Assembly: GCF_023343835.1 (NCBI RefSeq)
Contig: NC_064433.1
Span: 183,971,777 to 184,035,776, forward strand
From: Lagopus muta
Lineage: Eukaryota > Chordata > Aves > Galliformes > Phasianidae
DNA length: 64,000 bases
Reading direction: 5' to 3'
Shown here: positions 11,545 to 63,769 of the stretch, in pieces
Layout: each line of letters starts with the position of its first letter
How positions within the stretch are numbered: position 1 is the first letter of the stretch
Translations under genes and position numbers: made by a program
The notes under the pieces: model-generated
Seen by the model: the letters and a program-made list of their open reading frames with translations, nothing else
Told to the model about the DNA's origin: nothing
Databases searched by the model: none

Positions 11545-11715
11545 ATGTGCACAGGGAAGTGTTCGAGGTGCATTGGGATCACCCTGTTCCCGCTGGCTGC
11601 GTGTGCTATAGTCTCCAACATCCTCCTGTTCTTCCCCAATGGACAAGTTCTGCAGCTCAGTGAGATAACTGATCTGGTCTGGTTTTTCCAAGGCATTCTG
11701 GGAGCTGGAATACTG
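11545..11715 (+). CDS. L6 tetraspan gene, coding exon 1
   Basis: Codes residues 1-57: the short N-terminus with C-x-x-x-C-x-x-C, the first membrane segment, the FFPNG motif and the start of the second segment. Ends in phase 0 at donor CTG|gtaaga. Confidence 0.92.
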
Positions 11716-14700
11716 GTAAGAGAGAAGAGTTTCCTCTGTTTATGTTTTGTAGAACTTCTGTTAATGTAACACAAATCATGTTAGTTCCTTTTCAGAAATA
11801 TCCGAGTAGGTTAACTGGGAAGGTAGAGTGCAGAGATGAGAAAGTGCATTCAAGACTAAAGAAGCCCCAGTTCCTGAAATAAACATCAGCTTCTTCAGAT
11901 CATGAGTAAGACTGCCTTTCCACTGTGAAGAACAGTGATGTGGGTGATCATGTCTTTGCAGTCGAAGCACAGATGAGGTCCTAAGCTAGTCACAGGTGGT
12001 GAGCTTTCACCTTGGATACAATCCTTCCTTATTCCTCTCACTGATTTTATTCTCACAGAACCTATCTAAAAATATTAAGGGCAAAACTGAAATGTGTTTT
12101 GGTAGGTGTTCATTAGTGACCCAGCCACCACTGTGTGAATGTGGAGCTGAAAAGGACTTGCACGCCAAATGCCTCCCACGCTCCTCCATACTCAGCTCCT
12201 CTTGGATTTGATCTGGTTTGTGCGTGCTGTTCTGTGACCAGTTCTCCATTCCAAGACTCAGAAAAAAATTGAATATCCATAACCAGAAGGGAACATATTT
12301 GGGAACAGCGATATTTCCAGTTCATTAGAAGCCTACTCTGTGCATGTTCTTTCAGTTATCCACTCAGGTGCAGACAAAAAGCTGAGCAAGTGACAAGCAT
12401 ATGACAAGCAGTGGATGACATGTAGCCCAGGCAGATGGTAAATTGGTGCAGAGACGGCTACCTGCACATCAGAAAACCAAATGTTTAGAAATAATTAACT
12501 TAGAAAGATGTAAACCTTATTCAGTTGGGCCAGCTAGCACTTAAGTCTATAGAGAACTACAATGGATGTGGTTCAGACTTATATTTCCCCCTGCAGAAAT
12601 GTGGTATAAGATCATTCAATAAATTGTTCCCCACCAGCAGCTTACCTGCTTCTTCTTCTAGCTGCTACTTGGGCATATTACTCACTCTGAGCTTGAACGT
12701 AAGCAATGAGTGTGTGGAAGGAAGCTTAAAGGAGGAACTACATGAGAGACTGGTGGAAAATTGGTATCACTGCAAGCCCAGGAGTCATTGGCGTTCAATG
12801 AAAGGAAAGGCAAATGTTAAGCATGAAAGCATCACAAGCTCATTCAAAACGTGCCTTCTTTTAAGGCTGCCACAGAGGCTTTCCTGTGGTCAGCACTGCA
12901 TACTTTAAAAATGAGAACAGCAAAGGGAGAGGGAAGGAAGCATTTGCATTGGCCTTCAAAACACAGACACCAGCAGTAGGAGTAATTATCAAGCCACAAA
13001 CACTGCCATTGAGTGTACATGTTTTCCAGAAGACACTATGAGAAATGCCCACAGGTGGAGTAGGGAAAGATCATCAGCTCCATCTTCCAGGTGCTGGAAG
13101 CATGGAAAAATGGCATCTGGCTCCTGGGCCATAGGAGAGGTAATGCAGAGGGCAAGAATACACCATGACTGGAGCCCGGGCAGTATCCTGACTCCACAAT
13201 AAGAAAGACTGGGCTGCATAGATCTCTGCCATGAAAACATACTTGCCTCCAACTGGAAATTCAACCCACTGATGGATACCCAGCTCTTCAGCACACTCCT
13301 CAGCTGAGCAGCCAGTCTCGCTCTTTCTTTCTCCTCCTGTTGCTTCTCTAATGGGAACTTATATGACATGAAAACCTTTCCATTTACTTATTTCCAAAGA
13401 TTAGGTTATGAAGAAATGAAGATTCCATGTGCCATAGTAACATCGTTCCTAATGGGAAGCCTGTGTGAAGCACTGGGAAATGCCTGTTTCAGTCATGGCT
13501 CACTTGCAGTCCTCATTTTACAGACAGCAGCCAAATCTAGCAAATTCTCCTTTCTGGATCAAAAAGCAGGTGTTTATAATCAGACAGTGAAAAAAAGAAA
13601 AAGAAAGAAAAAAGCTGCCAGGCAGACCCTTCATGATGAGCCAGGCTAATAAATTAAAGTGCTTACAGCTTAGATGAGAAGCCTCTGATGAAGAGAGATT
13701 TCTGAAGGAAAGGGTACACACTCACTCAATGGGATGAAGTGCTAGCTCCCCCTGAAAGCCAGGTGGCAATGTACTGCCTTGGGGACCACTTGTGTTTAAG
13801 AGTTGGCTATAAGGTCTTTTAATCTCACTTTTCTACCCTTGCAAGACTCCATCTGTGGTTGAACAACCACTGTAGGTGCTGGAGGCTGTCCCTGAGGGGA
13901 GCATAAAATGTAACTGGGAGTAAATTCACCAGGAAATGTTTCGGGGCTACAAGTCTGAGGAGGTTTTGTAACACTGTCCTGCACAGTCTTAAATGGATAT
14001 TCACACTATACACATAAATTCCCTGGACTTCATTCACTGTGGACATTCTGCTTTTCATCTCCTACATGAGACAACATCTCATCATGCTGATTTTACATCT
14101 TTTCCGTTTTTCTTTTTTCTTTTTCTTTTTTTTTCCTCCTCCTTTCATTAACTTTACAGGGACCATTTCCTACTTTGTAAGATACTGTTTTCTTACACAG
14201 CTCTGTGAAATGCATGCAGTAACAGTGGTGGGCAGACGGAAGGCAGCAGGCGCACTTTGGCTGTAAAGCTAGACTGATAAAAAGCTTTCTTGCCCTCTAG
14301 CTACCAAACTAAATGCAGCCTTCCCTATCTCCAGTGCACCTGCGTAAGTGCCATGATGTCCTGAGACACAGATGGTTGCTGACTGCCCTGTATCTGTCCA
14401 GATCCACCCGTTCATTACCATGGAGAAAGCTGATGTGAACTGGGAGTTCCCTGCCGAGTGAAATCCATTGTGAAGGTTTTCTGGATGCTTAGCACGAAGA
14501 ACAAAAGCTAGATGTGTTTCAGGAAGCTTAAAACTGATTTCCCAATTATAATTTAGACCAGGATGCATAAAGAATTTAAACTACCGTAACTAAAGTTGTG
14601 CTGGAGGAGGGTCAGATTGGATATTAGCAAATCTTCTCAAAAATAGTGGTGACACACTGGCACGGGCTGCCCAGGAAGGTGGTGGAGTCATCATCTCTGG

Positions 14701-20700: not shown

Positions 20701-22791
20701 ATTGCAAAATGAAGGAAAGCAGCAATAAGAAAGACTCTGTTACATTTCTCACCAACTGGCAAAAATTACTAATGCATACTTCTCTGCTTTCATACCTGGT
20801 TCAGAAATTGCTTGCTTCAGTTGGTTCAAGGGCTGAGAGAGGTGCTCTGGGAGAATAATTTGGAATGACAAGGCATATGAAATAGACCACATCATATCAC
20901 AGTTTCATTCATGGCTCATCGGATTTACAACAGTAAGACTAAGAACGATTAAATCTCTGGTCTTACCTACTTTTAAAAGTAAAACACATACCATCTGAAA
21001 CCCTTTAATATCTAGGATAGCTGAACTAGTTAGAACTCAACTATCTTTTATTCCACAGATATCATTCTATGACTTTCATCATGTAGTAGGAAACAGAAAG
21101 CTTCCTTCTCATTCAATGTAAGCTTTCCATGATATTCGGTGCCTGTGTGTGTGTGCTACTGAAAGTCTTTTCCCTTTCAGATGCTGCTGTCAGTGCTTCT
21201 GGCTCTGCTGGGGTTTGCAGGAGGAGTGTACTGTGCAGTCTTCTCCTCAATGGGGTTGATTGGGGGCCCTCTGTGTGACACAGGTGATGGAGAATACCTC
21301 TATCCTTTCAGAAACAACACTCTGGAGTGAGTATGACTTACAGGCTCCTCTCAGTTTGTGTTCCCTGATTTCACTGTTCTTCTTTTCATAGAAAACTTAT
21401 TTTTTTTATGTGAACAGATGGTCAACACTGTCTACACCCAAACTCATGCTCCTCTGAGCTGGCGTGTTCCAGCTGGTCATCCCTTTGGCCAAGAGCTTAC
21501 CTACAGGCAAAGTGCCTACGTTTCTCCCATCGTGCTTGTCAGCAACCCCTTGTGCATGCCGCACCATGCCTTCAAAAGGCAGCTGAGTGATGAGCTGTGA
21601 CTATCATCAGAGTCAAGAGGAAGTATTTGATAATTATGCCATATTAACCTGCTAAATCAACATGACTTGAGTCTACTCTGCCTACTTCTGAAAAGTAAAA
21701 CACAAATCTCTTTTGATCCTATAAAGGCAAACTTGACAACCACACTCTTCAAGCCAGACCTAGAGATGATGGATAGACTGAGATACCTCAGCAGAAAAGG
21801 ATAATATGGTGAAATATTTTAAAACCATTAGATACCTTTCCCCTTAGGATTTAGCACTGCTGTGAGCATGCAGAAAAGCATGGGTAAAGTCATTAATTGC
21901 ACCTCTGCAAAGGGAATGCTAAAGAGAATCATCAGATTTACCAACTGCAGTATAATTTGAGACTCCCTTTTCACACTGTGCAAACAAATTCAAAGAATGT
22001 AAAGAAAATGCGAAGCTATTCTATAATGGCATACAGGTGAAAGCATTCTCAAATTCATATTTTCTAATACATTGCCAATTATTCTTCTTTGTAACAGATA
22101 CAATTATTTGTTCAATCAGACAACATGGAGCATTTGCAAAGAACCTGAAAACATCATCCTTTGGAATATTGTCCTTTTCTCTATTCTCCTGGCCCTTGGT
22201 GTGATTGAAGCAATTCTTTGCTCAATTCAAGTCATCAATGGACTCACTGGCTTTGTGTGTGGCACATGTATGAGGAGAAGAAAGGTTGGTATGCAATAAA
22301 AGATACCAGAGAGCTTTAAATTCTTACCACTTCTTTAATGGTAATGGTACGTAATCAGAGAGAGATGCACAAACCCTGACTGAATACTTCTGGAAAGCAG
22401 AGGCAGTTCGGATGCATTTGCACATTATCAGTCTCCATCTCAGTGTAAACGGGGATAACTCAGCTCTCGATATTTCAGAATAGCTTAGAAGTGTGATACT
22501 TCCCATATTCAGTTGCACATTTGTGTTCCCGCTCAAGAAGACTTTTGGTTGAAGTGTAATGGCCCTCCAAAAATGGATAATATAAGAAATAGAGGAATTT
22601 TAATTGCCAGTAAAAGTGTCATTTTATAAAACAGTAGAAAACTTATTTCCTATTTCATTTATCACCACTGCTTCCTTTCCAATCTTGGCTTTCATTGTAC
22701 AAGATGCTTGCATGAAGTCTGATATCCCTCTGGATTATTAATTAACCATTTTTTATTCACTGCCTTTCAGACAAACATTTCGGGAATGTGA
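11545..22791 (+). CDS. L6-family tetraspan membrane protein, TM4SF5/TM4SF1-like
   Basis: Five coding exons (11545-11715, 15638-15703, 21181-21326, 22098-22284, 22771-22791) join in frame to a 196-aa protein of the transmembrane 4 L6 family, which sits in the plasma membrane and helps control adhesion, growth and motility. The start [11 protein letters not shown] and the CC...NRCGML loop are closest to TM4SF5 as I recall it. The last membrane segment ([21 protein letters not shown]) is closest to TM4SF1. Four hydrophobic segments lie at about 9-31, 45-69, 80-105 and 147-177. The large outer loop has sequons at N124 and N134 and the family's W-x-x-C-x-x-P pattern. The start has a strong context (gccaccATG). 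The Cys-rich inner loop is about five residues shorter than in TM4SF5. Length is normal (TM4SF1 202, TM4SF5 197 aa). I am sure of the family but not of one-to-one orthology. The 5' UTR, promoter and poly(A) site were not resolved. Confidence 0.9.
14603..14830 (+). mobile_element. CR1 LINE 3' end
   Basis: Forward CR1 3' end in intron 1 of the tetraspan gene: 'actggcacgggctgcccag', 'gaaggtggtggagtcatc', 'ggtgatcttggaggtctttt' and a terminal 'atgattccgtgagtctatga'. Confidence 0.88.
15638..15703 (+). CDS. L6 tetraspan gene, coding exon 2
   Basis: Codes residues 58-79: the end of membrane segment 2 and the short inner loop [13 protein letters not shown]. Acceptor ctcgcag|GTT, donor GGG|gtaagt, phase 0 at both ends. 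Confidence 0.88.
17000..17058 (+). mobile_element. CR1 LINE 3' tip
   Basis: Only the last 60 bases of a forward CR1: a 'gggtcccttcccactcagg' block followed by 'ttctatgattct'. Confidence 0.5.
17405..17488 (+). mobile_element. CR1 LINE 3' tip (old)
   Basis: Diverged forward CR1 end: 'gagttggactcagtgatcat', 'gtgtcttccaacttgaga' and a terminal 'acaattctata'. Confidence 0.5.
19990..20115 (-). mobile_element. CR1 LINE 3' fragment
   Basis: Inverted CR1 end: 'acacagaatgtcccatgctg', 'gaagggacccacaag' and 'tgagtccaactcctgg'. Lies in intron 2 of the tetraspan gene. Confidence 0.75.
20460..20628 (-). mobile_element. CR1 LINE 3' fragment
   Basis: Inverted CR1 end with well-kept blocks 'cacagaatggtttgggtt', 'caggctgcccaggcccc', 'cctggccttgagcacctcca' and 'agctctctgggcagcctgtt'. 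Lies in intron 2 of the tetraspan gene. Confidence 0.9.
21181..21326 (+). CDS. L6 tetraspan gene, coding exon 3
   Basis: Codes residues 80-127 plus two bases of E128: membrane segment 3 and the first half of the large outer loop with GGPLC and the NNT sequon. Acceptor ctttcag|ATG; donor CTGGA|gtgagt. Confidence 0.92.
22098..22284 (+). CDS. L6 tetraspan gene, coding exon 4
   Basis: Codes the end of E128 and residues 129-190: the second half of the outer loop (NQT sequon, WSICKEPEN), membrane segment 4 and the CGTCMRRRK tail. The acceptor is gtaacag|ATAC. The donor AAG|gttggt is weak because +3 is T. If it is skipped, the frame ends a few codons later at 22299, giving a 194-aa form. Confidence 0.9.
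22771..22791 (+). CDS. L6 tetraspan gene, terminal coding exon (proposed)
   Basis: Good acceptor (gcctttcag) and a six-codon in-frame end TNISGM before TGA. A short separate last exon fits the five-exon layout of L6 genes. It is too short to be proven by similarity. Confidence 0.6.
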   Translation, partial: TNISGM

Positions 22792-25470: not shown

Positions 25471-25536
25471 TCTCCTCTCCTCTCCTCTCCTCTCCTCTCC
25501 TCTCCTCTCCTCTCCTCTCCTCTCCTCTCCTCTCCT
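25471..25536. repeat. (TCTCC)n pentanucleotide array
   Basis: About 13 uninterrupted copies, forming the left end of the polypyrimidine tract. Confidence 0.97.
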
Positions 25537-26136
25537 CCCCTCCCTCCCCCTCCCCCTCCCTCCCCCCCTCCCCCTCCCTCCCCCTCCTCCTCCCCCTCCC
25601 CTCCCTCCCCCCCCTCCCTCCCTCTCCCCCTTCCCCTCCCTCCCCCTCCTCCTCCCCCTCCCCTCCCTCCCCCTTCTCCCCCACCTCTCCCCCCACCTCT
25701 CCCCCCCTCCCCCCCTCCCCCCCCCTCCCCCCCTCCCCCCCCTCCCTCCCTCCCCCCCTTCCCCTCCCTCCCCTCCCTCCCCCTCCTCCTCCCCCTCCCC
25801 TCCCTCCCTCCCCCGCCTCCTCCCCCTCCCCTCCCTCCCCCCCCCTCCCCTCCCCCCCCCTCCCCGCCCTCCCCTTCCCTTCCAGTTCCCCTTCCACCCC
25901 TCCTCCCCTCCCCCCCTCCCCTCTCTTCCCTCCCCTCCCCTCCCCCCCTCCCCTCCCTCCCCCCCTCCCCTCCCTCCCCTCCCTCCCCCCCTCCCCGCCC
26001 TCCTCTTCCCTCCCCCCCTTCCCTTCCCCCCTCCCCCCCTTCCCTCCTTTCCCCCTTCCCCCCCTCCCCTCCCCTCCTCCTCCCCTCCTCTCCCTCCCCC
26101 TCCCCCTCCCTCTCCCCCCACTTTCCCATCCCCCCT

Positions 26137-26325
26137 CCTTCCCTTCCCTTCCCTTCCCTTCCCTTCCCTTCCCTTCCCTTCCCTTCCCTTCCCTTCCCTT
26201 CCCTTCCCTTCCCTTCCCTTCCCTTCCCTTCCCTTCCCTTCCCTTCCCTTCCCTTCCCTTCCCTTCCCTTCCCTTCCCTTCCCTTCCCTTCCCTTCCCTT
26301 CCCTTCCCTTCCCTTCCCTTCCCTT
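26137..26325. repeat. (CCCTT)n pentanucleotide array
   Basis: About 38 perfect copies. Perfect copies over nearly 190 bp point to a young, probably length-variable array. Confidence 0.97.
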
Positions 26326-26389
26326 CCCCCGCCTTCCCCCCTTCCCCCCTTTTCCCCTTGCTCTCTCCTTTCTCCTTTCTCCTTCTTTT

Positions 26390-27388: not shown

Positions 27389-27566
27389 ATGGCTCTAAAT
27401 ATACCAGGATTGGTATCTTTGAGTGTATTTTTTACATTCACTTTGGCTGCTGGAATTTGGGCTTCGTGGAAAAGCAGAAAGGAGCAGCAGAACCAAAACC
27501 CAACTGAAATGGCCATCGTTGGAGGCAGGAATATAAAAGTTTGTGTTGGATTGTTTACTGCAACTG
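27389..27566 (+). CDS. Choline transporter-like gene, exon 1
   Basis: Residues 1-59 plus one base: first membrane helix (GIWASW), IVGGR motif and the beginning of TATW. Donor ACTG|gtaagc, phase 1. Confidence 0.93.
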
Positions 27567-30500
27567 GTAAGCTTTCTTAAAGGACCTTTAACATTCTTCT
27601 GAAAACACATGCACTACCCAAATCTGGGGGCCGTTTTCTTTTCAAAGCAAGTTGCCTTTAATGTCAGGGCAGATTTTACCTGAGTGTGGCTTTAAAGGAG
27701 TACGGTTTCATGAATCATTTTGGGATGGATTCTTCCAAACCTCTTCACACTGAGCAGAACCTCATGTTTATGTAGATTAAATTAAAGAGCTTAATTTAGG
27801 AGTTTAGTTAAGAGCTGGAGAGTTTAATTTAAGAGTGCCTGAAGAATGTGACACTTTTCATTAAGGAAGAGTGTGGTCTTAATCTTGAACTAGTTTCTGT
27901 TATCCAGCATTTTTCTCCTGGAACAAACCAGTTGAAACAAACTGTTCCTGGCATTGAGCACTTGCTGGGAGCTACAAGGTGAAGCTCCCCCCTCTTCCCT
28001 CCCCACTGCCCTCCTCTTCTATTTTCTCTTCTTGCTGCTTGACATCACCTGAAATTTGCTTTTCTGCCTTTTTTTTTTTTTCTCTTTCAAAAGCAGCTCA
28101 GGTGACATTTGTCTGAGTAAGACACCTAAGTCCAGGCTGCAAGTTTGCTCTGCTAACTGCACTGCCTGCTTGCATTTCCTTTCCTAGTGTCTGCTTCGCT
28201 ACCAGTGTAAGTAGCGCTCATGGAGGACGGCCTATCAGCCACAGCAGAATACCAAACGCGCTTCTCTTTGTTCTAGCAAAAGTCTTCCAGTGAGGAAAAA
28301 ATGAAATGCAGGATGAGCATATTCGGATTGCCTTTAAATACCTGAACACTGAGCTTTTCTGTGAATGAATTCTTTCTGAACTCAGGAATTATTTAGAGTG
28401 AGACTCCAACAGTTACCTTCCCTCAGCAGGTGTGGTGAGCGCTCACTCTGGGATGAGATTTGTTTCAGAAACTAGGAGTGTGATTATCTGCTTGTATAAG
28501 AAAACGGTTTATAAGCTCTCTGTCCTACAGGACAAGATGAAGATATGCACCACAAGATTTACCTTTGTGTCTTTCATGTTTGCAGCCACCTGGGTTGGAG
28601 GAGCGTACATCAATGGCACAGCTGAAATCGTCTATCTGCCTTCCAAAGGACTGCTGTGGGTCCAAGCGCCTGTGGGGTTTGCCTTGTCCCTTCTTATTGG
28701 TAAAGAATTCACAGAGTAATCAGGAAATAAAACCAAATGAGCACATTAAGTTGTGTAACAGAGTGTAGAGTACATTTTAAATGTGATTTTGTTCCTCCAG
28801 TTTCCAAAAAACCCAGAATAAGCACTGATGATGCTGCTTTCCAAACAGAAACATAAGGAATCAAGGTAGCTCGCAGCTGGTGTAGAGCTTTGTCTGCTTG
28901 GAGCAATTTACGCTACAGAAATCTCATCTGATAATTTTGGGAATCTGTGGATATGTGAATGCCACTTTCTATCATAGTCTGTTAGTCACAAACTACTGAG
29001 AGTATCAGTATCATCTGATTTTTTTCCTTTGGAATTTCTGTGTGATGAACCTTAGTGATTTTGCCACTGAAGCCTTATCTCAGGGTGAATTGGCGATGTG
29101 TCCAGCTGTGTCCCACTCAACAGCTGTTCACAGCTTTGTTCTAACCGAGACCCACTGGTTTCTGGCCCAGTCAAGTCTGCCGTTTTCTACATCTGTTCCA
29201 ATACCTAGAAATTACTGTGTTTGCACTGAGGTTCTTGCTGAGATTGAGGTTTCTTCCAGTCCACAGTGAGTTATACCATAACTCTATGGACACTGGAAGA
29301 TTAAAGGAGACCTGTGCAGACCTTTGCACAGGAATTTCTAAAGGAACAATAACCTTTATTCTCAAGTCAGAGAAAAGAGTCCAACTGACGTGAATATGAA
29401 TCAGGCTTGGAAACATACTGCCAGCATTTCTTATGTGAGCAATTCTTACTAATGAAACTGGGGAGTGCAGGTCTAATCCTGCAATCTTTACTCAGGTCAG
29501 TAGTGCCCAGACAAGCAGTTCTGTTGGCTTCGGGGTTAGGCACAGTACGTACTTTTTGGTTTTAATGAGATGGCTGTATGACTGAAGACTAATATTTAGA
29601 TGAGGGTGGGTGAAACTCAGCTCAGTGCACAGATTAAAACAATATAATTCTGGGAAGAGACAATGAAGACACCTAAATGAAAATGTAACCAGAAAAGTAA
29701 GTTATATCAACATGTTGCATCACATGGACAAGGACAGAAGTTCATCTATTTTTAGCCAAATATTCAACACCTCTGACATTTTCCATGGGAAGCATTTCAG
29801 GAGACTGTGTCTCGCGTTGGTTGGTCATTGGAGATGAAGACAGACCAAGTCTGGATAGGTGTGCTCTGAGCTAATTTCTGAATTTCTGTTTCAGTCAATG
29901 GAAATGTCCTTCATATGCTCAATGAATCAAGATTTCAACTCAGTCTTAAATCTATAGAATCATAGGATTGTCTGAGTTGAAAGGGTCATCTAGTCCAACT
30001 CCCCTTGTGGTGAACAGGGACACCTACAGCTAGATCAAGTTGCTCAGAGCCCCGGCCAGGGATGCCCTAGGGGTTCGTGCCTGGATTCCAGCAGCCACTC
30101 CTGAGACATGTACGAGTACTAAAAGTGGAGGATCGTATCTATCAGCTGTGGATGTCCCTGATGACCCAGAATCTCTCAGATAGATGAAATCCCCCATTTA
30201 AGCAAGTGGATCATTTCCTTTGCTGTATCATTCCATAGGCTCTGTTAAGGATGAATTTCACGCTCACTGTACAAATTTGAAATATATTCAACTACTATAG
30301 CATTCTTATGATATATATGTGCAAAATTCTATTAAAATGTAAACTCTTCTGATAGGTGGTTTCTTCTTTGTAAATCCAATGAGATCCAAGAATTACATGA
30401 CAGTGATGGATCCCCTTCAGGAAGTATACGGGAACATGATGGGAAGCTTACTTTTTATTCCTCCCCTGCTCGGAGAGGTGTTCTGGTTTGCAGCTATCCT

Positions 30501-33500
30501 GGCATCTCTGGGTAAGTAACAATTTTGCTGTTATATTTATTGAAAATCATATGACACGAATCACAGAGTGAAGTACACATGTGGTAATTGAGTTGGACTA
30601 AACTGTGGAAAGCTGTGCTTCATGTCTTTTTTTCTGAGAGGAACAAAAGTATTTTCAATTTCTGGAAAATATTCTCTTAGATGGCAGTATCCACGATACT
30701 GTAACAGAAGGTTCTGGAAATATGATTTAGTACCTTCATCTTGTCTGTGGGAGAAAAGGTGCAAGGAGTCAAACTGACTGGGCTAAGGCCATGCAGCAAG
30801 GCAGCAACAGGAAGGGTACATGGGCTCCCCTGGGTCCTCACTGCATGCTTTCTGCTAGATCATGCACTCCTCCACCAACATGGCGTGCTGACTTCAGCGG
30901 CGTAATGTATCCTTATTTATTCTGTATTCTACATGTAAGAAATATCCATTAAAATACTTGACTGCTGTTCTTGTCTGCAGGAGCAACAATGAGGGTCATC
31001 TTGGATATCGGAGGCTCTTTAGCTATCGCTCTCTCAGCATGCACAGTCATACTCTACACTCTACTGGGAGGCCTCTACTCTGTGGCATACACAGATGTCA
31101 TCCAGTTGGTTTTCATCACCCTCAGCCTGGCAAGTCCTGTGCATTTCTTTGTTACCAGGTTCCTAACCAAGGGACAAAATCTTTCTCTTTTCAGAATGTC
31201 TCCATGAAAATAATTTGATCAATATTATTTCTTTATCCTCTTCAGAACAAGTCTCCTGAAAGGTCTTAAAATCCTTATGCATTTTAGACATTGCTGACAC
31301 AAGCTATTGGCCTTGCTGGATGACAAGCTGCTCACAAGTAAGGTCAGCAGAGCTCATCCAGGACAATCTTGGCTGGAAATGAGAGAGATTTGTCTACTGA
31401 AGTGATTCATATACTTGATGATGCCATGAACCAGAAACATGTAGATTTAGAGTAAGGCAGGTGGGGAAAAGAAGACTCCAAATCTGGGCTTAAGGTTATG
31501 TAGCTTTATACTCTACATGGATTTCAATGTCTGCATAAATTTTCCTAGAACAAGGATCCTGAAGAAATGTTAAACTATTTCAATTTCTATCCTAGTTGGT
31601 CTGTATTCCCTTTGCCCTGAAAAACTCTGCAACAGAAAGTATTTACTACACTGCAACTCATAAACATTACCAAGACCCCTGGATTGGAAAAATAGAAAAA
31701 CAGTATCTTGGAAGGTGGCTGGATGACTTCTTCTACCTGGTATGGGAAATTTGCTTGGACAAGTGATTCGGAGAAGTAATTATGTGGGATTTTCTGTATG
31801 GAAAACTTATGGACTCTTCCAGTAGTACTAAAATGCACTGGGCAAGGGCAGAATGAGGTATAAAACTTTCTCTCAGCCATTCTGCTGAATGGACTTCAGC
31901 ACAATGAATGGACCTGGAAAAGCCAGGGCTTAGCTCTGAACAGGAAAGGAGGGGTAGGGAAGCATCCTGTACCCATGTAAAGGAATATACCTCTTGAGTA
32001 AGACCATGCAGACAACTAATTCTATTCCTGACACAAAATGAGGCACTTCCTACCACCTGATATCTTGGTTTTTCAGCCTCAATAATGTGCTTTTAACATA
32101 TTTATATAAAATTTCCTCTATCTGAGAAAGTCTATTAAAACAGCTCTATTGCAGGTCATCACCATGGTGCCAAGAATGATGCCATTGGCTCCACTGCACA
32201 ACTCAGCTTTTGAGCTACCAATATAGGCAGGACTGCAGTGGGTTGTTACAATCTCACTAGATTGGTAATGTGAACACACAGAAGCTTGGCTTTGCTTGGT
32301 GAGGACAGAATTCTCAGACTTCCTCTGATGCAATTTGTGTGTTAAGCAAGTGAAAATAATTATTCACATTTTATTATGATTTTTTAATAAGTTACACTCT
32401 AGTTAACTTTAGGCAGATTTTGACAAAAGTTGCATTCTTGAAAAACTTATCTTCAGCAAACTTTATCTTCCTCTGATTCTCCTTTACCATGGCAGAGAAC
32501 CTATTTCCCAACTTTCTCCACCTGCAAAAGCTTTAACCTGTTTTGATCAAAATTTCACAACCATTGCAATTAAAACAAAGGATGCCCTCGATGAGAATTA
32601 TTCAGCCTCAGTGACTAAAGCTGGGCAAAGTTTATGCATTTGAAGAGAGGGTTTAATAACAGGAAAGATTATCAACCATCTGAATGAATAGATGATGCCG
32701 TGTAGCAAGCAGGAATCCAGTAATTACTACTCTTCACATCTGAATATTTCAGGTGCTTGGGAGCATCCCATGGCAAACTTTCTTCCAAAGAGTGCTCTCT
32801 GCTGCCTCACCCAGCCAAGCAAGGTTCATCTCCTACCTCTCTGGACTAGGATGCTTTTTAATGGCCATCCCCCCCGTGCTCATTGGTGCAGTTGCAGCAT
32901 CAACAGGTAAAGCTGAACTATTTGTATCTGAATAATGAACATGTTTTTTGCCAAAGCTGTTTAAAACAAGGGATAAAAAAGCCCTGATCAAATTTCCTAC
33001 TAATGCATGCCAACTGCCTAAAAACCCATTATGGGAGATGTGGCCACCAAGCTAGAAGTCTGTAGTAGAAATGTAGAGCCCTAGAGACATTTAAAGCACC
33101 CCCAAATCTGCCTAGAGCTATTTCATTGTGGTGAAATGATTTTTCATGCACGTTGCAGTGAGGAAAGAGGAAGGCAGAACCATAAAACATTGTATAATCT
33201 GGTTTTCCTAGAAATGTTATGCTTGCTTCTCTTAATGCCTTCTGCAAGTGAGACCCAGTAGTACCACTATAGATTGCTTTTGATGTTCAGGAGAAAATCA
33301 GCTTGAATGAATCAAGTTCAGTTGCATAAACCCTCAGCCCCCACCCAGAAGAGTTCAGTTCTATGTTGACTGTGAGCAGAGTTGAATAGCAGCCAGATCA
33401 CTGAATATTTATAGAAATCAATTGAAATTCATCAGTCATTAAGGACATCAGAGCAAAACTTCCTTCTCCTCTGAGAGACCTCTGATAAGTGAAGTCCAGA

Positions 33501-35222
33501 AGACTGATCTTCAAACATCCCATTCTTAGAAACATATGAAGCACAGCTATTTCTACTGATGTCGCTGGTAAAAAGGAAAAACTTTGATCTAGTAAGAACT
33601 GCAGCATGCTTAGAGAATCACAAGAGATCGTAAGAGAATACAGCAAATGAATACAAGTCCAAAAATGCTTAGCAGGCTTCAGTCCTTAGCCCTGCTGTGA
33701 CTGGTTTCTATCGAAAGAAATGTCAATGAAGGATCTGTTGTGAGCTTTTCTTCTTCTGTCTTAAAGATTGGAACCAGACAAGCTATGGTCTTCCAAGTCC
33801 ACTCGAGAGAGGAGAATCCGCTATGATATTGCCATTTGTTTTACACTACCTCTGCCCAGCATACATCTCCATTGCTGGCTTGGGAGCCATTGCTGCTGCT
33901 GCAATGTCTTCTGCAGACTCAGCTCTTCTCTCTGCTGGCTCCATGTTTGCTCACAACATCTACAGAAAAATCTTGAGGAAAAAGGTACTTTGTTACAGCA
34001 TTCAGCAGCTTTGGTGTCAGGATAGATGTTTTTGTTTCAGGGTAGATGCAAACTTAGTCTGCACTGCCCACGGTTAGAAGTGACTGTCCTTCAGCTGCTG
34101 AGTCGAGCTCTGGAGGCAGATTTTGAAACAGAGGTCAGGGCTATTCATAGAATCACATCCACAGAATGGTTTGAGTTGAAAGGGACCTTAAAGCCCATCC
34201 AGTTCTAATACCCTGGCACAGGTGGGGTCACTAGACCAGGCTGCTCAAACCCACATCCGATCTGGCCTTGAACACTTCCAGAGATGGGACATCTACAGCT
34301 TCACAGTAACCTGTGCCTTTTTTTTAATTCAAAACCGCTACCCCACTACCACTCTGCCACCTCTCCAACCTGTCCAGGTCCCTCTGGATGGAATCCCTTC
34401 CCTACACTATGTCAACCACACTATGCAGCTTGGAGTCATATCCTCAGCAGGGATACAAATACCCACAGCAGTGAGCTTTGCTCTTCATAAGACAACTGAG
34501 AAAAAAAAATTGACCAAGATATGAACGGAAATAGCATAAAATCAACCCTCAAGATTAGAGGGTGCAGCTCCACTCTGCGCTGTGGGAGCCATGATCAGAG
34601 GGGAAAGCCGAGGTGACGGCTGGAAGCAGTGAGGCCTGGGGTGGGACCCAGCCGAGGGCAAGGCAGTGCTGTGGTAATGTTACAGTCTTTTCTTTTACAG
34701 GCTGCAGACAGGGAGGTCTTATGGGCCATGAGGACCTCCATGCTGGTGTTTGGGGCTGGGGCTGCCAGTCTGGCTTTTTACTCCAACTCTGTCTACGACC
34801 TGTGGTTCCTCAGCGGGGAGCTGGTGTACGCCCTGCTTTTCCCACAGCTGTGTTGTGCCCTCTTTGCTCCCAGTAGCAACACGTATGGTTCAGCTGCTGG
34901 TTTCTTGGTTGGACTCCTCCTGAGGCTGCTGGCAGGGGAACCTGCCCTGAAAATCCCCCCCATCATCTGCTATCCAGTCTGCTCCTTCCTGGATGGGTCC
35001 TACACGCAGCTCTTCCCCTATAAGACATTCACCATGCTTTTCACTTTGGGGACGATCATTGCTGTTTCATATTTGGCTACACTTTTGTTTCAGAGAAACC
35101 TTCTTCCCCGCAGATGGGATGTTTGCAATGTCCTGGGGGAAACCAGCACTCACACCCCTCTGTGTCAGATGGACAAACAGATGGGTTTGCAAACAGTGCC
35201 ATTGGAAGAGAATTGTGATTAA
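27389..35222 (+). CDS. High-affinity choline transporter-like protein (SLC5A7/CHT1 paralogue)
   Basis: Eight exons join in frame to 544 aa of the sodium/solute symporter family SLC5. They match CHT1, which imports choline with Na+ and Cl- into cholinergic nerve endings. Compared from memory with human CHT1, residues 1-321 align with no gap. Shared landmarks are IVGGR (43-47), TATWVGG (59-65), YINGTAE (67-73), LLFIP (129-133), [10 protein letters not shown] (179-188), IPWQ (252-255), the N301-Q-T sequon and SSADS. Of the aromatic residues reported around choline, W62, W141 and W254 are kept and Y91 is F. The C-terminal tail is about 35 residues shorter and unlike CHT1, with no clear counterpart of its ILV endocytosis signal. 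The start has a good context (aaaATGg). No break is seen in the frame. Divergence is too great for it to be the SLC5A7 orthologue, so I read it as a paralogue; its substrate is not proven. Confidence 0.93.
28586..28699 (+). CDS. Choline transporter-like gene, exon 2
   Basis: Residues 60-97: W62, YINGTAE, QAPVGF with F91 in place of Tyr. Acceptor gtttgcag, donor ATTG|gtaaag. Confidence 0.95.
29954..30175 (-). mobile_element. CR1 LINE 3' fragment
   Basis: Inverted CR1 end in intron 2 of the transporter gene: 'atagaatcataggattgtct', 'tcatctagtccaactcccct' and 'agatcaagttgctcagagcc'. Confidence 0.82.
30356..30511 (+). CDS. Choline transporter-like gene, exon 3
   Basis: Residues 98-149: [24 protein letters not shown] and W141. 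Acceptor tgatag, donor CTGG|gtaagt. Confidence 0.95.
30981..31129 (+). CDS. Choline transporter-like gene, exon 4
   Basis: Residues 150-199: [27 protein letters not shown]. The exon ends at CTG (phase 0) and is followed by gcaagt, a GC donor. Exon 5 continues the CHT1 alignment exactly from there. Confidence 0.92.
31130..31595 (+). other. GC-AG intron 4 of the choline transporter-like gene
   Basis: The 5' splice site is CTG|gcaagt and the 3' site is tcctag|TTG. Moving the junction to a nearby GT would lose the frame or the gap-free match to CHT1. Confidence 0.82.
31596..31739 (+). CDS. Choline transporter-like gene, exon 5
   Basis: Residues 200-247: [29 protein letters not shown], matching CHT1 VPFAL, YQKPWLG and WLDSFLLL. 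Phase 0 at both ends; donor CTG|gtatgg. Confidence 0.92.
32753..32906 (+). CDS. Choline transporter-like gene, exon 6
   Basis: Residues 248-298 plus one base: [15 protein letters not shown] with W254, and [14 protein letters not shown]. Acceptor tttcag, donor ACAG|gtaaag. Confidence 0.95.
33767..33984 (+). CDS. Choline transporter-like gene, exon 7
   Basis: Residues 299-371: [10 protein letters not shown] with the N301 sequon, [14 protein letters not shown], the Na+-site helix with SSADS, and [10 protein letters not shown]. Acceptor ttaaag, donor AAG|gtactt. Confidence 0.95.
34145..34440 (-). mobile_element. CR1 LINE fragment with internal deletion
   Basis: Inverted CR1 in intron 7 of the transporter gene. 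The 3' end ('cagaatggtttgagttgaaa' to 'gagatgggacatctacagct') is joined after a short T-run to a more 5' block, 'aacctgtccaggtccctctg', so the middle is missing. Confidence 0.85.
34701..35222 (+). CDS. Choline transporter-like gene, exon 8 (last)
   Basis: Residues 372-544 and TGA... stop codon: [53 protein letters not shown]-like [12 protein letters not shown] and the last membrane helix, then a tail of about 45 residues. Near the end QMDKQMGL aligns with CHT1 NMDKTILV but lacks the ILV. The stop is TAA at 35220-35222. Confidence 0.95.
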   Translation, partial: AADREVLWAMRTSMLVFGAGAASLAFYSNSVYDLWFLSGELVYALLFPQLCCALFAPSSNTYGSAAGFLVGLLLRLLAGEPALKIPPIICYPVCSFLDGSYTQLFPYKTFTMLFTLGTIIAVSYLATLLFQRNLLPRRWDVCNVLGETSTHTPLCQMDKQMGLQTVPLEENCD

Positions 35223-35350
35223 ATGCGGGACCTTGAAAGGACATGGTGCATTCAGCAATTAGAGCTTGGCACTGCTCTTCCCTTTGCTTTCTCTAGTAAC
35301 AAATTATTTAAAGTTCTCACGAAGTAATAAAGACACACTCCATTCATGCA
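35223..35350 (+). terminator. 3' UTR and poly(A) signal of the choline transporter-like gene
   Basis: AATAAA at 35326-35331 lies about 105 bases after the stop, giving a very short 3' UTR that probably ends near 35350. Confidence 0.75.
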
Positions 35351-37310: not shown

Positions 37311-37460
37311 GCGTCACCACCACAGCCACATCACCACCACAGCCACATCACCACCACAATCACATCACCACCACAGCCACATCACCACCACAGCCACATC
37401 ACCACCACAGCCACATCACCACCACAGCCACATCACAGCCACAGTCACATCACCTCCTGA
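37311..37460. repeat. 17-bp minisatellite, about 8 copies
   Basis: The unit is ACATCACCACCACAGCC. One copy has AATC in place of AGCC, and the last copies are shortened. Because 17 is not a multiple of 3, the reading frame cycles every 51 bp; the His/Thr/Pro-rich open frame is an artefact. It starts directly after a CR1 3' tail. Confidence 0.93.
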
Positions 37461-48810: not shown

Positions 48811-49070
48811 ACCGTCCTGTGGGTCATTAAGGTGGGAATGACCTCTAAGCTGACCACGTCCAGCCGCAGCCCACCCCGCCGTGCCCAGTCCCTCAGCGCC
48901 ACAACTCCGCGGTTCCCGGGCACCTCCAGGACGGTGACTCCACCCCTCCCTGAGCCGCCCGTGTCAGCGCCTCACCGCCCTTACCGAGAAGAAATGCTTC
49001 TAATGCCCAACCCGAGCCTCTCCTAGCGCAACTGAAGGCCATTCCCTCTCGTCCTATCGCTGTTACGTGC
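48811..49070 (-). mobile_element. GC-rich CR1 LINE 3' fragment at the edge of the VSTM5 CpG island
   Basis: It follows the CR1 3' end block by block: 'gtcattaaggtgggaatgac', 'cccagtccctcagcgccaca', 'cacctccaggacggtgactc' and 'tcgtcctatcgctgttac'. It has kept many CpG sites that the other copies have lost. Confidence 0.78.
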
Positions 49071-49252
49071 GAGCAGAGCCGACCCCCACCCGGCCACAAC
49101 CTCCCCTTCCAGCTCGGGCTATGCCACGCGGCTCCCTTGGCGGCCAATTGCATCCCGCGATCGTATCGGGGCAGGGAGGAGAGGCGCGGGGAAGGGTCGG
49201 CGGGGAGGAGGAGGCCGCAGCCCGTTCTCGCGGGCCCCGCCCGGCGGGGTCA

Positions 49253-49360
49253 ATGCCGCGGCCGCTCTCCGATGAGATTTGTGCGGGGATGTCGGAGACG
49301 CGGTGCCATCGTGGGGACCGTCACCCTCTGCCTGGCGGCCGGCTGGGCTCTGCAGAGTAA
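49253..49360 (+). other. Upstream ATG overlapping the VSTM5 start
   Basis: An ATG 19 bases before the VSTM5 start is out of frame with it. In genomic DNA the frame stops at 49360, just inside intron 1. In spliced mRNA it would run to a stop at 51426-51428, about 60 codons. Both ATGs have weak contexts (pyrimidine at -3). It matters only if transcription starts upstream of 49253. Confidence 0.5.
49272..49356 (+). CDS. VSTM5: VSTM5 exon 1 (signal peptide)
   Basis: Residues 1-28 plus one base. MRFVRGCRRRG is the basic n-region. Donor CAGA|gtaagt, phase 1. Confidence 0.92.
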
Positions 49361-52300
49361 GTCCGCCCGCTCCCCTTCCTTCTTCCTCCTTGGCCGCGCC
49401 GTGGCCGCTTGCGGGCGCTCGGTGCGACGTTTGCTGTGCGGGCTGCCGCGTTTCTCTTGGGGTCCAACCGGCAGGACCGCGTGTCACAAATATTTGTCGG
49501 TGTTCAGATCTTGCGGTGCTGCGTTTGGCTCGTGGGCTGCATGGGGAGTTCAGGTATTTGCAGATAGTTCAGTGGAAGGGCGTATCTTTTTAACCTTTAC
49601 CTTGCAGTCATATGTGCAAAAGAACTGCCTTTATCCCGGCATTAGAAGGCACTGCAGAGAGACTGTCAGCTCAGCTCTGGCCAGAAACAGAGCAAAAGGC
49701 CTTTAAATAAATGCAGGGAACTGAAAACAATGAGAGCAGTTTGCAGCGGTTACCAGGAGCTCCCATCTGTTTGTCTCACTGTCACAAAGCCCTTTCCCTG
49801 GCCTGCTCTGTCTCTGGGGAAGGCAGGCTGAAGGCGAGCACCGCCTGGCCGAGAGGTGCTGTGGGAGGGCATGGCGAGAACCCATGGAGGGAGAATCCCA
49901 GCAGCAGTGTCCTGGGAAGAGCTGAGGTCCTACTGCTGTTCCAGCTCGGCAGCAGCAGTCAGGCTACTGCTACTGAGGGTGGGGGAGCTGAACCAGGAAA
50001 AGTCCCCCCGTGCTTTATCTGCCTTCGGTCTGGTTTGATTTCTGCAGGCAGGAAACCCAGCCTCTCGCCAAGTTATCACTAACGTGCCATTAACTCAAAA
50101 ACGAGGTGTGCCCATTGAAACTCAAATGTTTGGTGTTCTTCCAAATCCTCATGCAGGAAAACCCCCATGCAAGTAGGGTTATTGCAGTTACACATTAAAC
50201 CAAATGATCCATTCTGTTCAGCAGTTATGAGCAGCTCCATAATCACATTAGTGGGAAGTGTGTGATAATTATTTTTTCGTATACATTTTTGCCTGGAAGT
50301 TGGTGCAAGAAGATCCCTCTGATGATGTGATTTATCTGCACTGGCAGATAGCTGGCTGTCCTGATGTAGCTGTTCTCTCAAACACTGCTAACACATTATT
50401 TCTGATTTAAAGCCTACATGACATCTCCAGCAGCCTGCTGTCCCTCTCATTATGCAAACATGATGAAGTCCTTGCCAAGTCTTCACGTACTTAAGCTTGC
50501 TACAGTCCGTGCTTTGGGGGGATGATTAGTTGATATAACAGCTTACTTTGGCCATGGCTATTAAGATTTCCATTTTAAACATAGAACTTCAAAGGCAAGC
50601 CAGTTACTGGTGAACACAAAAGCATTACTCTTGATCCACGGCATGAGGTAAATAAACCAGGTTTTGTATTTCGTCAGAATGTTTGTTTCATTTTAGTGTG
50701 GGCATTAGGCTGACTTGGTCTGTCTGAAGTCCCTATAAACTGGAACATTGTAATTGACTTTGGAAATCATAAATGCCATCCCTGTTTTGTTTGTTTGTTA
50801 AGTGCTTGGCAGTTGAGTTGTAAATTCATTACTGTGAAACGTACTGACTTTGGGGACACAGGAGAGATGGAGCTTTGGACTGTTCCCAAAAGACAGTTCA
50901 TTTACCTCTGAGGAGGCTGTGGGTTGCAGGGCTTTGAGAGCTTATGAAGGAAGTGCAGCGCCTACTTTTCCCATACATGATAAAATACATTAAGGATGAG
51001 GTTTATGAGAACATGATGTGATTTCCATTTCTCAATTTGAGGTAATCAAAAGACCAGAGCTTCACACTTCCTTGTCAGAAGGACCCTTCCACACTTTTTC
51101 CTCGAAACACTGAAACACAAGCTGTTACTTGTCCTGTAAGACACAGACATTTCTTCTGACTGCAACCAAATAAAGCACGTATTTAGTCTTATGTTAGACA
51201 CGTGTATTCCTACAGTGGTCAACAGAGAGAGAAACTCCTGTCCTGAAGTCACTAAGATAGGATGAAGTGCCCTCCCAAGAGGTCCCACCCTGCCCAGGAT
51301 ATTCATGTGCTGCACCCCTCCTGCACTCATTGCCCCCTTTGTCTTTCAGCTCCTGGAGGAGTGTCGTTAATTGTCCCACAGCCCAACATCAACGCAACGG
51401 TGGCACAGAATGTCCTCCTCTCTGTTGAGTACTCCTGTAGAGGCATTGCCACTGTGGAGTGGAAACATGTGTCGAGCTGGGGCACCACCAAAATTGTGGA
51501 GTGGAAAAGTGGGCATTACATCAACATATCCAGCGCCTATAAGGACAGAGTGACTGCTTTTGAAAATGGTTCTATACAGCTTCTGAACGTGGGCATGAGA
51601 GATGCTGGCTACTATTTTATCACAGTCACAGAAGAGTATGGAACCAACACCTATGGCACCATCATACTCAATGTTTATGGTATGAAACTCGTGGGATTTC
51701 TTAGCCTTACCCTGTGTTTAAACACTAACCTGCTCATAAGCAATGTCGTAACATCACACATTTCTGCCCTCTTTGCAGAGATTATCTATGAAGATTTACA
51801 TTTCGTAGTGGTTCTCTTTGTATTTCTTGCTGCAATATCTGCCATTTTGATCTGCTTCATGTGGCTGTGTAACAAATCCCTCTACCTGTTCCAGAAGAAG
51901 ACACATAAGCTAACAGGTATCTAAGAATGCAGCCCAGACACACGTTTTTCCAATCTGAGAAATCTGAGAAACTCACTCATGGTTTGAGCTGTAAAGGTGT
52001 GAAGTGGTGACAGAAAAACAAAATTGGAAGGGCTTGGCTGAGTCATCCTGTTTAACTCTTTACTAACACAGGCAACTGAATAATAGGTATTTAATTGAAA
52101 AAGATCCACAGGACATCTACCTTGTATTTTATATCAGAAACTAAAGAACACTTCCCTACATCATTAGCTGCTGCTGTTTTTTCACAGTGGACACACAGCT
52201 CATGAGCTTCTGTAGCTACTGAAAATGTTCTTACCATGCCAGTTTGGGTAAAGCCTCTCCTTCCTCCAGTTAAAGCCAATTTTCCTATGCAGCAAGAGTT

Positions 52301-57726: not shown

Positions 57727-63769
<6,043 letters not shown>

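Follow-up and report, generated by a model that had tools for sequence, protein, structure and literature searches.

A CHT-type gene lies in the window, the whole 64,000-nucleotide stretch of Lagopus muta DNA analyzed here, and raises the question of whether it is the bird's SLC5A7 or a second gene, and whether its product could still work as a transporter. The usual view of SLC5A7 in humans is of one gene that is specific to nerve. Rebuilt from the window sequence, the CHT-like gene has eight exons on the plus strand (27389–35222), and the joined frame comprises 544 codons and a stop with no internal stops (Table 1). The sequence-only reading had given the same coordinates, with the start at 27389 and the stop at 35220–35222 both exact, and its intact eight-exon frame of 544 amino acids was reproduced. 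The splice sites that it considered usable were borne out: six of seven introns are GT-AG, and the fourth is GC-AG, with a donor after 31129 (CTG/GCAAGT). GC-AG introns are a normal minor class. The start codon is preceded by A at −3 and followed by G at +4. Of all single changes in the frame, about 3.7% would create a stop (transitions weighted double), and from this rate the chance that the frame would stay open after 200 unselected changes is ~5e-4. A retrocopy was ruled out because the gene has seven introns.

Table 1. Exons of the CHT-like gene and neighboring features in the window.
Feature	Position	Strand	Remarks
Exon 1	27389–27566	+	From the ATG through residue 59, plus base 1 of codon 60; 41% identity to human CHT1
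Exon 2	28586–28699	+	Choline/Cl-/Na2 loop W62 V63 G64 G65 A66 Y67, E73, F91; 68% identity to human CHT1
Exon 3	30356–30511	+	W141; 62% identity to human CHT1
Exon 4	30981–31129	+	D188 (Na3); GC donor at end; 54% identity to human CHT1
Exon 5	31596–31739	+	D243, Y246, L247 (hemicholinium-3 vestibule positions); 40% identity, lowest of the exons
Exon 6	32753–32906	+	W254, Q259, R260, S263; 57% identity to human CHT1
Exon 7	33767–33984	+	NQT sequon 301; A343 S346 S347 (Na2); D349 S350 (Na3); 64% identity
Exon 8	34701–35222	+	W406, F407, C-terminal part and tail, stop codon 35220–35222; 46% identity
AATAAA, candidate polyadenylation signal	35326–35331	+	Pattern only; begins 104 bases past the stop codon
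VSTM5 homology, neighbor	51337–51912	+	tblastn with human VSTM5, 50% identity
MED17 exons, neighbor	57730–63688	-	Four tblastn matches with human MED17

The protein was compared with PDB chains and Pfam to establish its family. The best PDB match is human CHT1/SLC5A7 (E 8.6e-182), followed by a bacterial choline transporter, 9rws (E 4.8e-104), and a putative sodium:solute symporter (E 1.9e-4), with no other distinct sequence below E 0.001. Pfam assigns only the SSF domain (PF00474; 89.2 bits against a cut-off of 22.8). Of the solved symporters in the PDB, CHT1 is the one nearest to the window protein. This places the window protein in the CHT clade, and a generic SSS-family gene of the SGLT or NIS kind was ruled out since strong matches are confined to CHT-type chains. 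The residue numbering of 9rws matches that of sfCHT in PMC13220886, and we treat the two as the same protein. A MAFFT alignment of the three proteins gave 52.5% identity between the window protein and human CHT1 (271 of 516 positions), 43.7% between the window protein and sfCHT (197 of 451), and 48.3% between human CHT1 and sfCHT (218 of 451). The first of these values agrees with the large share of differing positions that had been described from the sequence. The same description had the alignment without a gap over human residues 1–321, which holds and understates its extent, as no gap occurs up to window-protein residue 469 and there is a single one-residue gap overall. Identity to human CHT1 ranges across exons from 40% (exon 5) to 68% (exon 2). 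Hydropathy helix counts gave overlapping segments for both proteins and were not used as evidence.

Functional residues were taken from the site lists in the cryo-EM papers on human CHT1 (PMC11589582) and sfCHT (PMC13220886). All eight sodium-site residues are aligned with identical residues in human CHT1, both at Na2 (A60, V63, A343, S346, and S347) and at Na3 (D188, D349, and S350), as are the four exit-path residues R47, Q259, R260, and S263. Of the six aromatics at the choline site (W62, Y67, Y91, W141, W254, and W406), only Y91 is changed, to F, and the other five are kept. The chloride loop reads VGGAY in the window protein versus VGGGY, i.e., G66A, and the hemicholinium-3 site keeps E73 and L247 and carries the changes S243D, L246Y, and Y407F. 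The window protein thus belongs to the same family as human CHT1 (PDB 8j74, 9bfi) and shares its Na2, Na3, and exit-path residues and most of those at the choline site, but it is only 52.5% identical to it, differs at these five positions, and has a shorter, unaligned tail. Likewise, sfCHT is of the same sequence family with the sodium, cage, and tunnel residues conserved, but its counterparts of A66, F91, and Y246 are G, Y, and L. As judged from the alignment with these published sites, the sodium sites are kept, as is most of the cation cage, and the chloride loop and outer vestibule are altered.

Effects of changes at some of these positions are given in the same papers. In human CHT1, the backbone nitrogen of G66 binds Cl- (PMC11589582), and choline transport by the window protein could be weak or lost because G66A alters this invariant glycine. 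The Y91F change in human CHT1 lowers Vmax from 1181 to 353 pmol/mg/min and moves KM from 12 to 22 µM (PMC13220886); F91 would therefore be compatible with choline uptake, as KM is little changed. Human Y407A and S243R both weaken hemicholinium-3 block (PMC11589582).

The same positions were examined in prokaryotes. A scan with an alignment headed by a bacterial protein identified 231 relatives among prokaryotic genome stretches encoding CHT-like transporters; an earlier prokaryote scan with a single protein had matched its pattern in five stretches, with no relatives among them. Residues were counted in the best 80 of the 231 relatives (L001–L080), a set that leans towards the bacterial protein since it headed the scan alignment. 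All 80 have G66 and L246, as does human CHT1. At position 91, Y occurs in 77 and F in the other 3; at position 407, F (48) outnumbers Y (30); and position 243 is variable. Among the 169 columns that are at least 95% conserved in these best 80 of 231, the window protein alone departs at 24 and human CHT1 alone at 11, so that constraint on the window protein looks looser or changed. In three of the best 80, the residue that aligns with D349, the aspartate of Na3, is Ala.

Outside the transport core, two further features of human CHT1 were compared. An LV-to-AA change in human CHT1 serves as the endocytosis-resistant form in PMC13220886, and no L-[LIV] pair occurs in the final 34 residues of the window protein. 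From this absence, the window protein is unlikely to be recycled by endocytosis in the manner of CHT1. Human CHT1 1–517 has three N-x-S/T sites, of which 69 and 301 (NQT) are kept and 371 is absent in the window protein.

On this evidence the locus is likely to be a protein-coding, intron-bearing paralog of SLC5A7 whose product would be a Na+-coupled importer of the CHT kind for choline or a similar small amine, and the protein is probably a working transporter of such a molecule. Because the sodium sites and cage are kept and the chloride loop and vestibule are altered, we predict Na+-driven, choline-type uptake with changed chloride dependence and a changed response to hemicholinium-3. In the proposed mechanism, W62, Y67, W141, W254, and W406 would bind choline or a similar small quaternary amine, and Na+ at Na2 and Na3 would drive it inward. 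G66A and Y91F are predicted to affect turnover and the coupling to Cl-, and sensitivity to hemicholinium-3 would change with S243D, L246Y, and Y407F. A non-neuronal uptake role would be the likeliest use of the protein, although this is a guess. Several observations count against this explanation, namely G66A, the 24 versus 11 departures at conserved columns, the 50% identity of VSTM5, the GC donor, and the loss of sequon 371. The locus is of interest mainly because its sodium sites are intact while residues of the chloride loop and vestibule have changed. If the explanation is true, the protein would be a natural variant for probing what determines chloride dependence, hemicholinium-3 block, and substrate choice, and it might point to choline uptake outside neurons in birds.

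The kept and altered residues also bear on what is carried, and on whether anything is. A CHT paralog with Na+ coupling might have exchanged choline for betaine or another trimethylamine, or for a carnitine-like or ethanolamine-like molecule, a reading that overlaps the one above and that we regard as unlikely but plausible. It would account for G66A, Y91F, L246Y, G251S, Y257F, and D411E on untouched sodium sites; at these six changed positions the human residue is found in 80 of the best 80 of 231 prokaryotic relatives (77 for Y91). G251, Y257, and D411 presumably lie near the pocket, as they are close to W254 and W406 in the sequence. A cage in which W62, W141, W254, and W406 are all kept argues against such a switch, as do the commonness of F407 (48 of the same 80) and the mild effect of Y91F alone in human CHT1 (PMC13220886). 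A recently silenced gene, with the frame still open and the product unexpressed or non-transporting, would fit the faster change relative to human (51 versus 30 unique differences with the bacterial outgroup; chi2 5.4) and the GC donor in intron 4. We consider silencing improbable in view of the intact 544-codon frame, the 8 of 8 sodium-site residues, the good start context, and the polyadenylation signal, and because the GC-AG intron belongs to a normal class.

Whether the choline-type importer proposed here is encoded by a paralog was judged from its divergence. Similarity to human SLC5A7 is below ortholog level, at 52.5% versus 90–94% for three exons of MED17 elsewhere in the window. These three exons, cleanly matched by tblastn, have identities to human MED17 of 90.0%, 92.7%, and 94.4%; one more match, at 78%, runs past the exon end through stop codons. 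VSTM5, a neighbor assumed to be orthologous, is only 50% identical to human (tblastn), so low identity alone is no proof of a paralog, and this is what favors the reading that the gene is the animal's sole SLC5A7, a fast-evolving ortholog of human CHT1. However, human CHT1 is 48.3% identical to the bacterial transporter over 451 positions, which indicates a slow-changing protein, and a bird SLC5A7 ortholog at 52.5% would therefore be very odd. In humans, no CHT gene other than SLC5A7 is known, and its place is 2q12, not beside VSTM5. With sfCHT as the outgroup, 51 differences are unique to the window protein and 30 to human CHT1 (chi2 5.4). In a tree without support values, built from the window protein, human CHT1, and 27 of the 80 prokaryotic loci, the two group together with branch lengths of 0.98 and 0.54, respectively; human CHT1 alone made up the vertebrate comparison set, and the tree cannot date the duplication. 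Other birds are reported to express a gene named SLC5A7, in zebra finch (ENSTGUG00000009694; PMC8910180) and in starling (PMC10399071), and the excerpts of these expression papers give no chromosomal place.

A sole, fast-evolving ortholog is very improbable. The best reading of the sequence is that the locus is a CHT-type paralog of SLC5A7, given the 52.5% identity, the slow change of CHT1, the longer window branch, and the gene named SLC5A7 in two other birds; with VGGAY in place of VGGGY, it is filed as such a paralog rather than as SLC5A7 itself. The second CHT-like gene of the sequence-only reading therefore stands as an intact CHT-family gene with usable splice sites that is too diverged for a plain bird ortholog, and its status as a paralog stands as the best reading only. 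Only tentatively would we extend the paralog reading to an ancient second CHT lineage that split from SLC5A7 before the vertebrate radiation, was kept in birds (perhaps also other non-mammals) and lost in mammals, and acquired a new substrate or chloride-independent coupling through G66A, Y91F, and L246Y.

Teleost SLC5A7 copies may stem from the teleost genome duplication. A further CHT copy in a vertebrate is not new in kind, since zebrafish slc5a7a/slc5a7b (PMC5515482) and "several co-orthologs" of SLC5A7 in stickleback (PMC9309457) have been published. The point of likeness is a vertebrate carrying CHT1-type genes in more than one copy. A crayfish paper (PMC9902875) is cited alongside the fish copies. 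Among the open-license papers listed, none had a bird CHT1 paralog as its subject in the title or the opening of the abstract.

The genes in the window are ordered, from left to right, L6/TM4SF-type (+), CHT-like (+), VSTM5 (+), and MED17 (-). A position of the CHT-like gene between VSTM5 and MED17 was ruled out, as both are to its right. The label VSTM5-MED17 locus is accordingly right in that the gene adjoins VSTM5, and needs correcting in that VSTM5 separates it from MED17. From human gene order, the left neighbor would presumably be HEPHL1 or PANX1. Neither gave a significant match in the window with short probes, and both were absent from a six-frame Pfam scan of 1–27299 (E 0.01), which contained the L6/TM4SF gene, one DUF922 match under its cut-off, and no other match. 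The L6/TM4SF gene codes for a four-transmembrane protein (PF05805) on the plus strand, in pieces at 11545–11733, 21181–21327, and 22060–22269, with an ATG at 11545. The first piece scores 63.5 bits and the later two together score 107 bits; the middle piece was placed by eye. No L6/TM4SF-type gene is known next to human VSTM5.

Other observations in the window concern VSTM5 and repeats. An open frame on the plus strand at 48954–49703 contains MRFVRGCRRRGAIVGTVTLCLAAGWALQS and is perhaps the first exon of VSTM5 with a signal peptide, a resemblance judged by eye. Some sequence in the window is presumably CR1-like repeat, which together with the neighboring genes points to a bird genome. A tract of 884 bases (25474–26357) is 98.8% C and T and ends ~1 kb upstream of the CHT-like start codon; TRF gives it a period of 5 and 178 copies of a CCTCC-like unit. 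TRF also identified a tandem array at 37314–37454 with a period of 17, 8.3 copies, 93% matches, and the consensus TCACCACCACAGCCACA.
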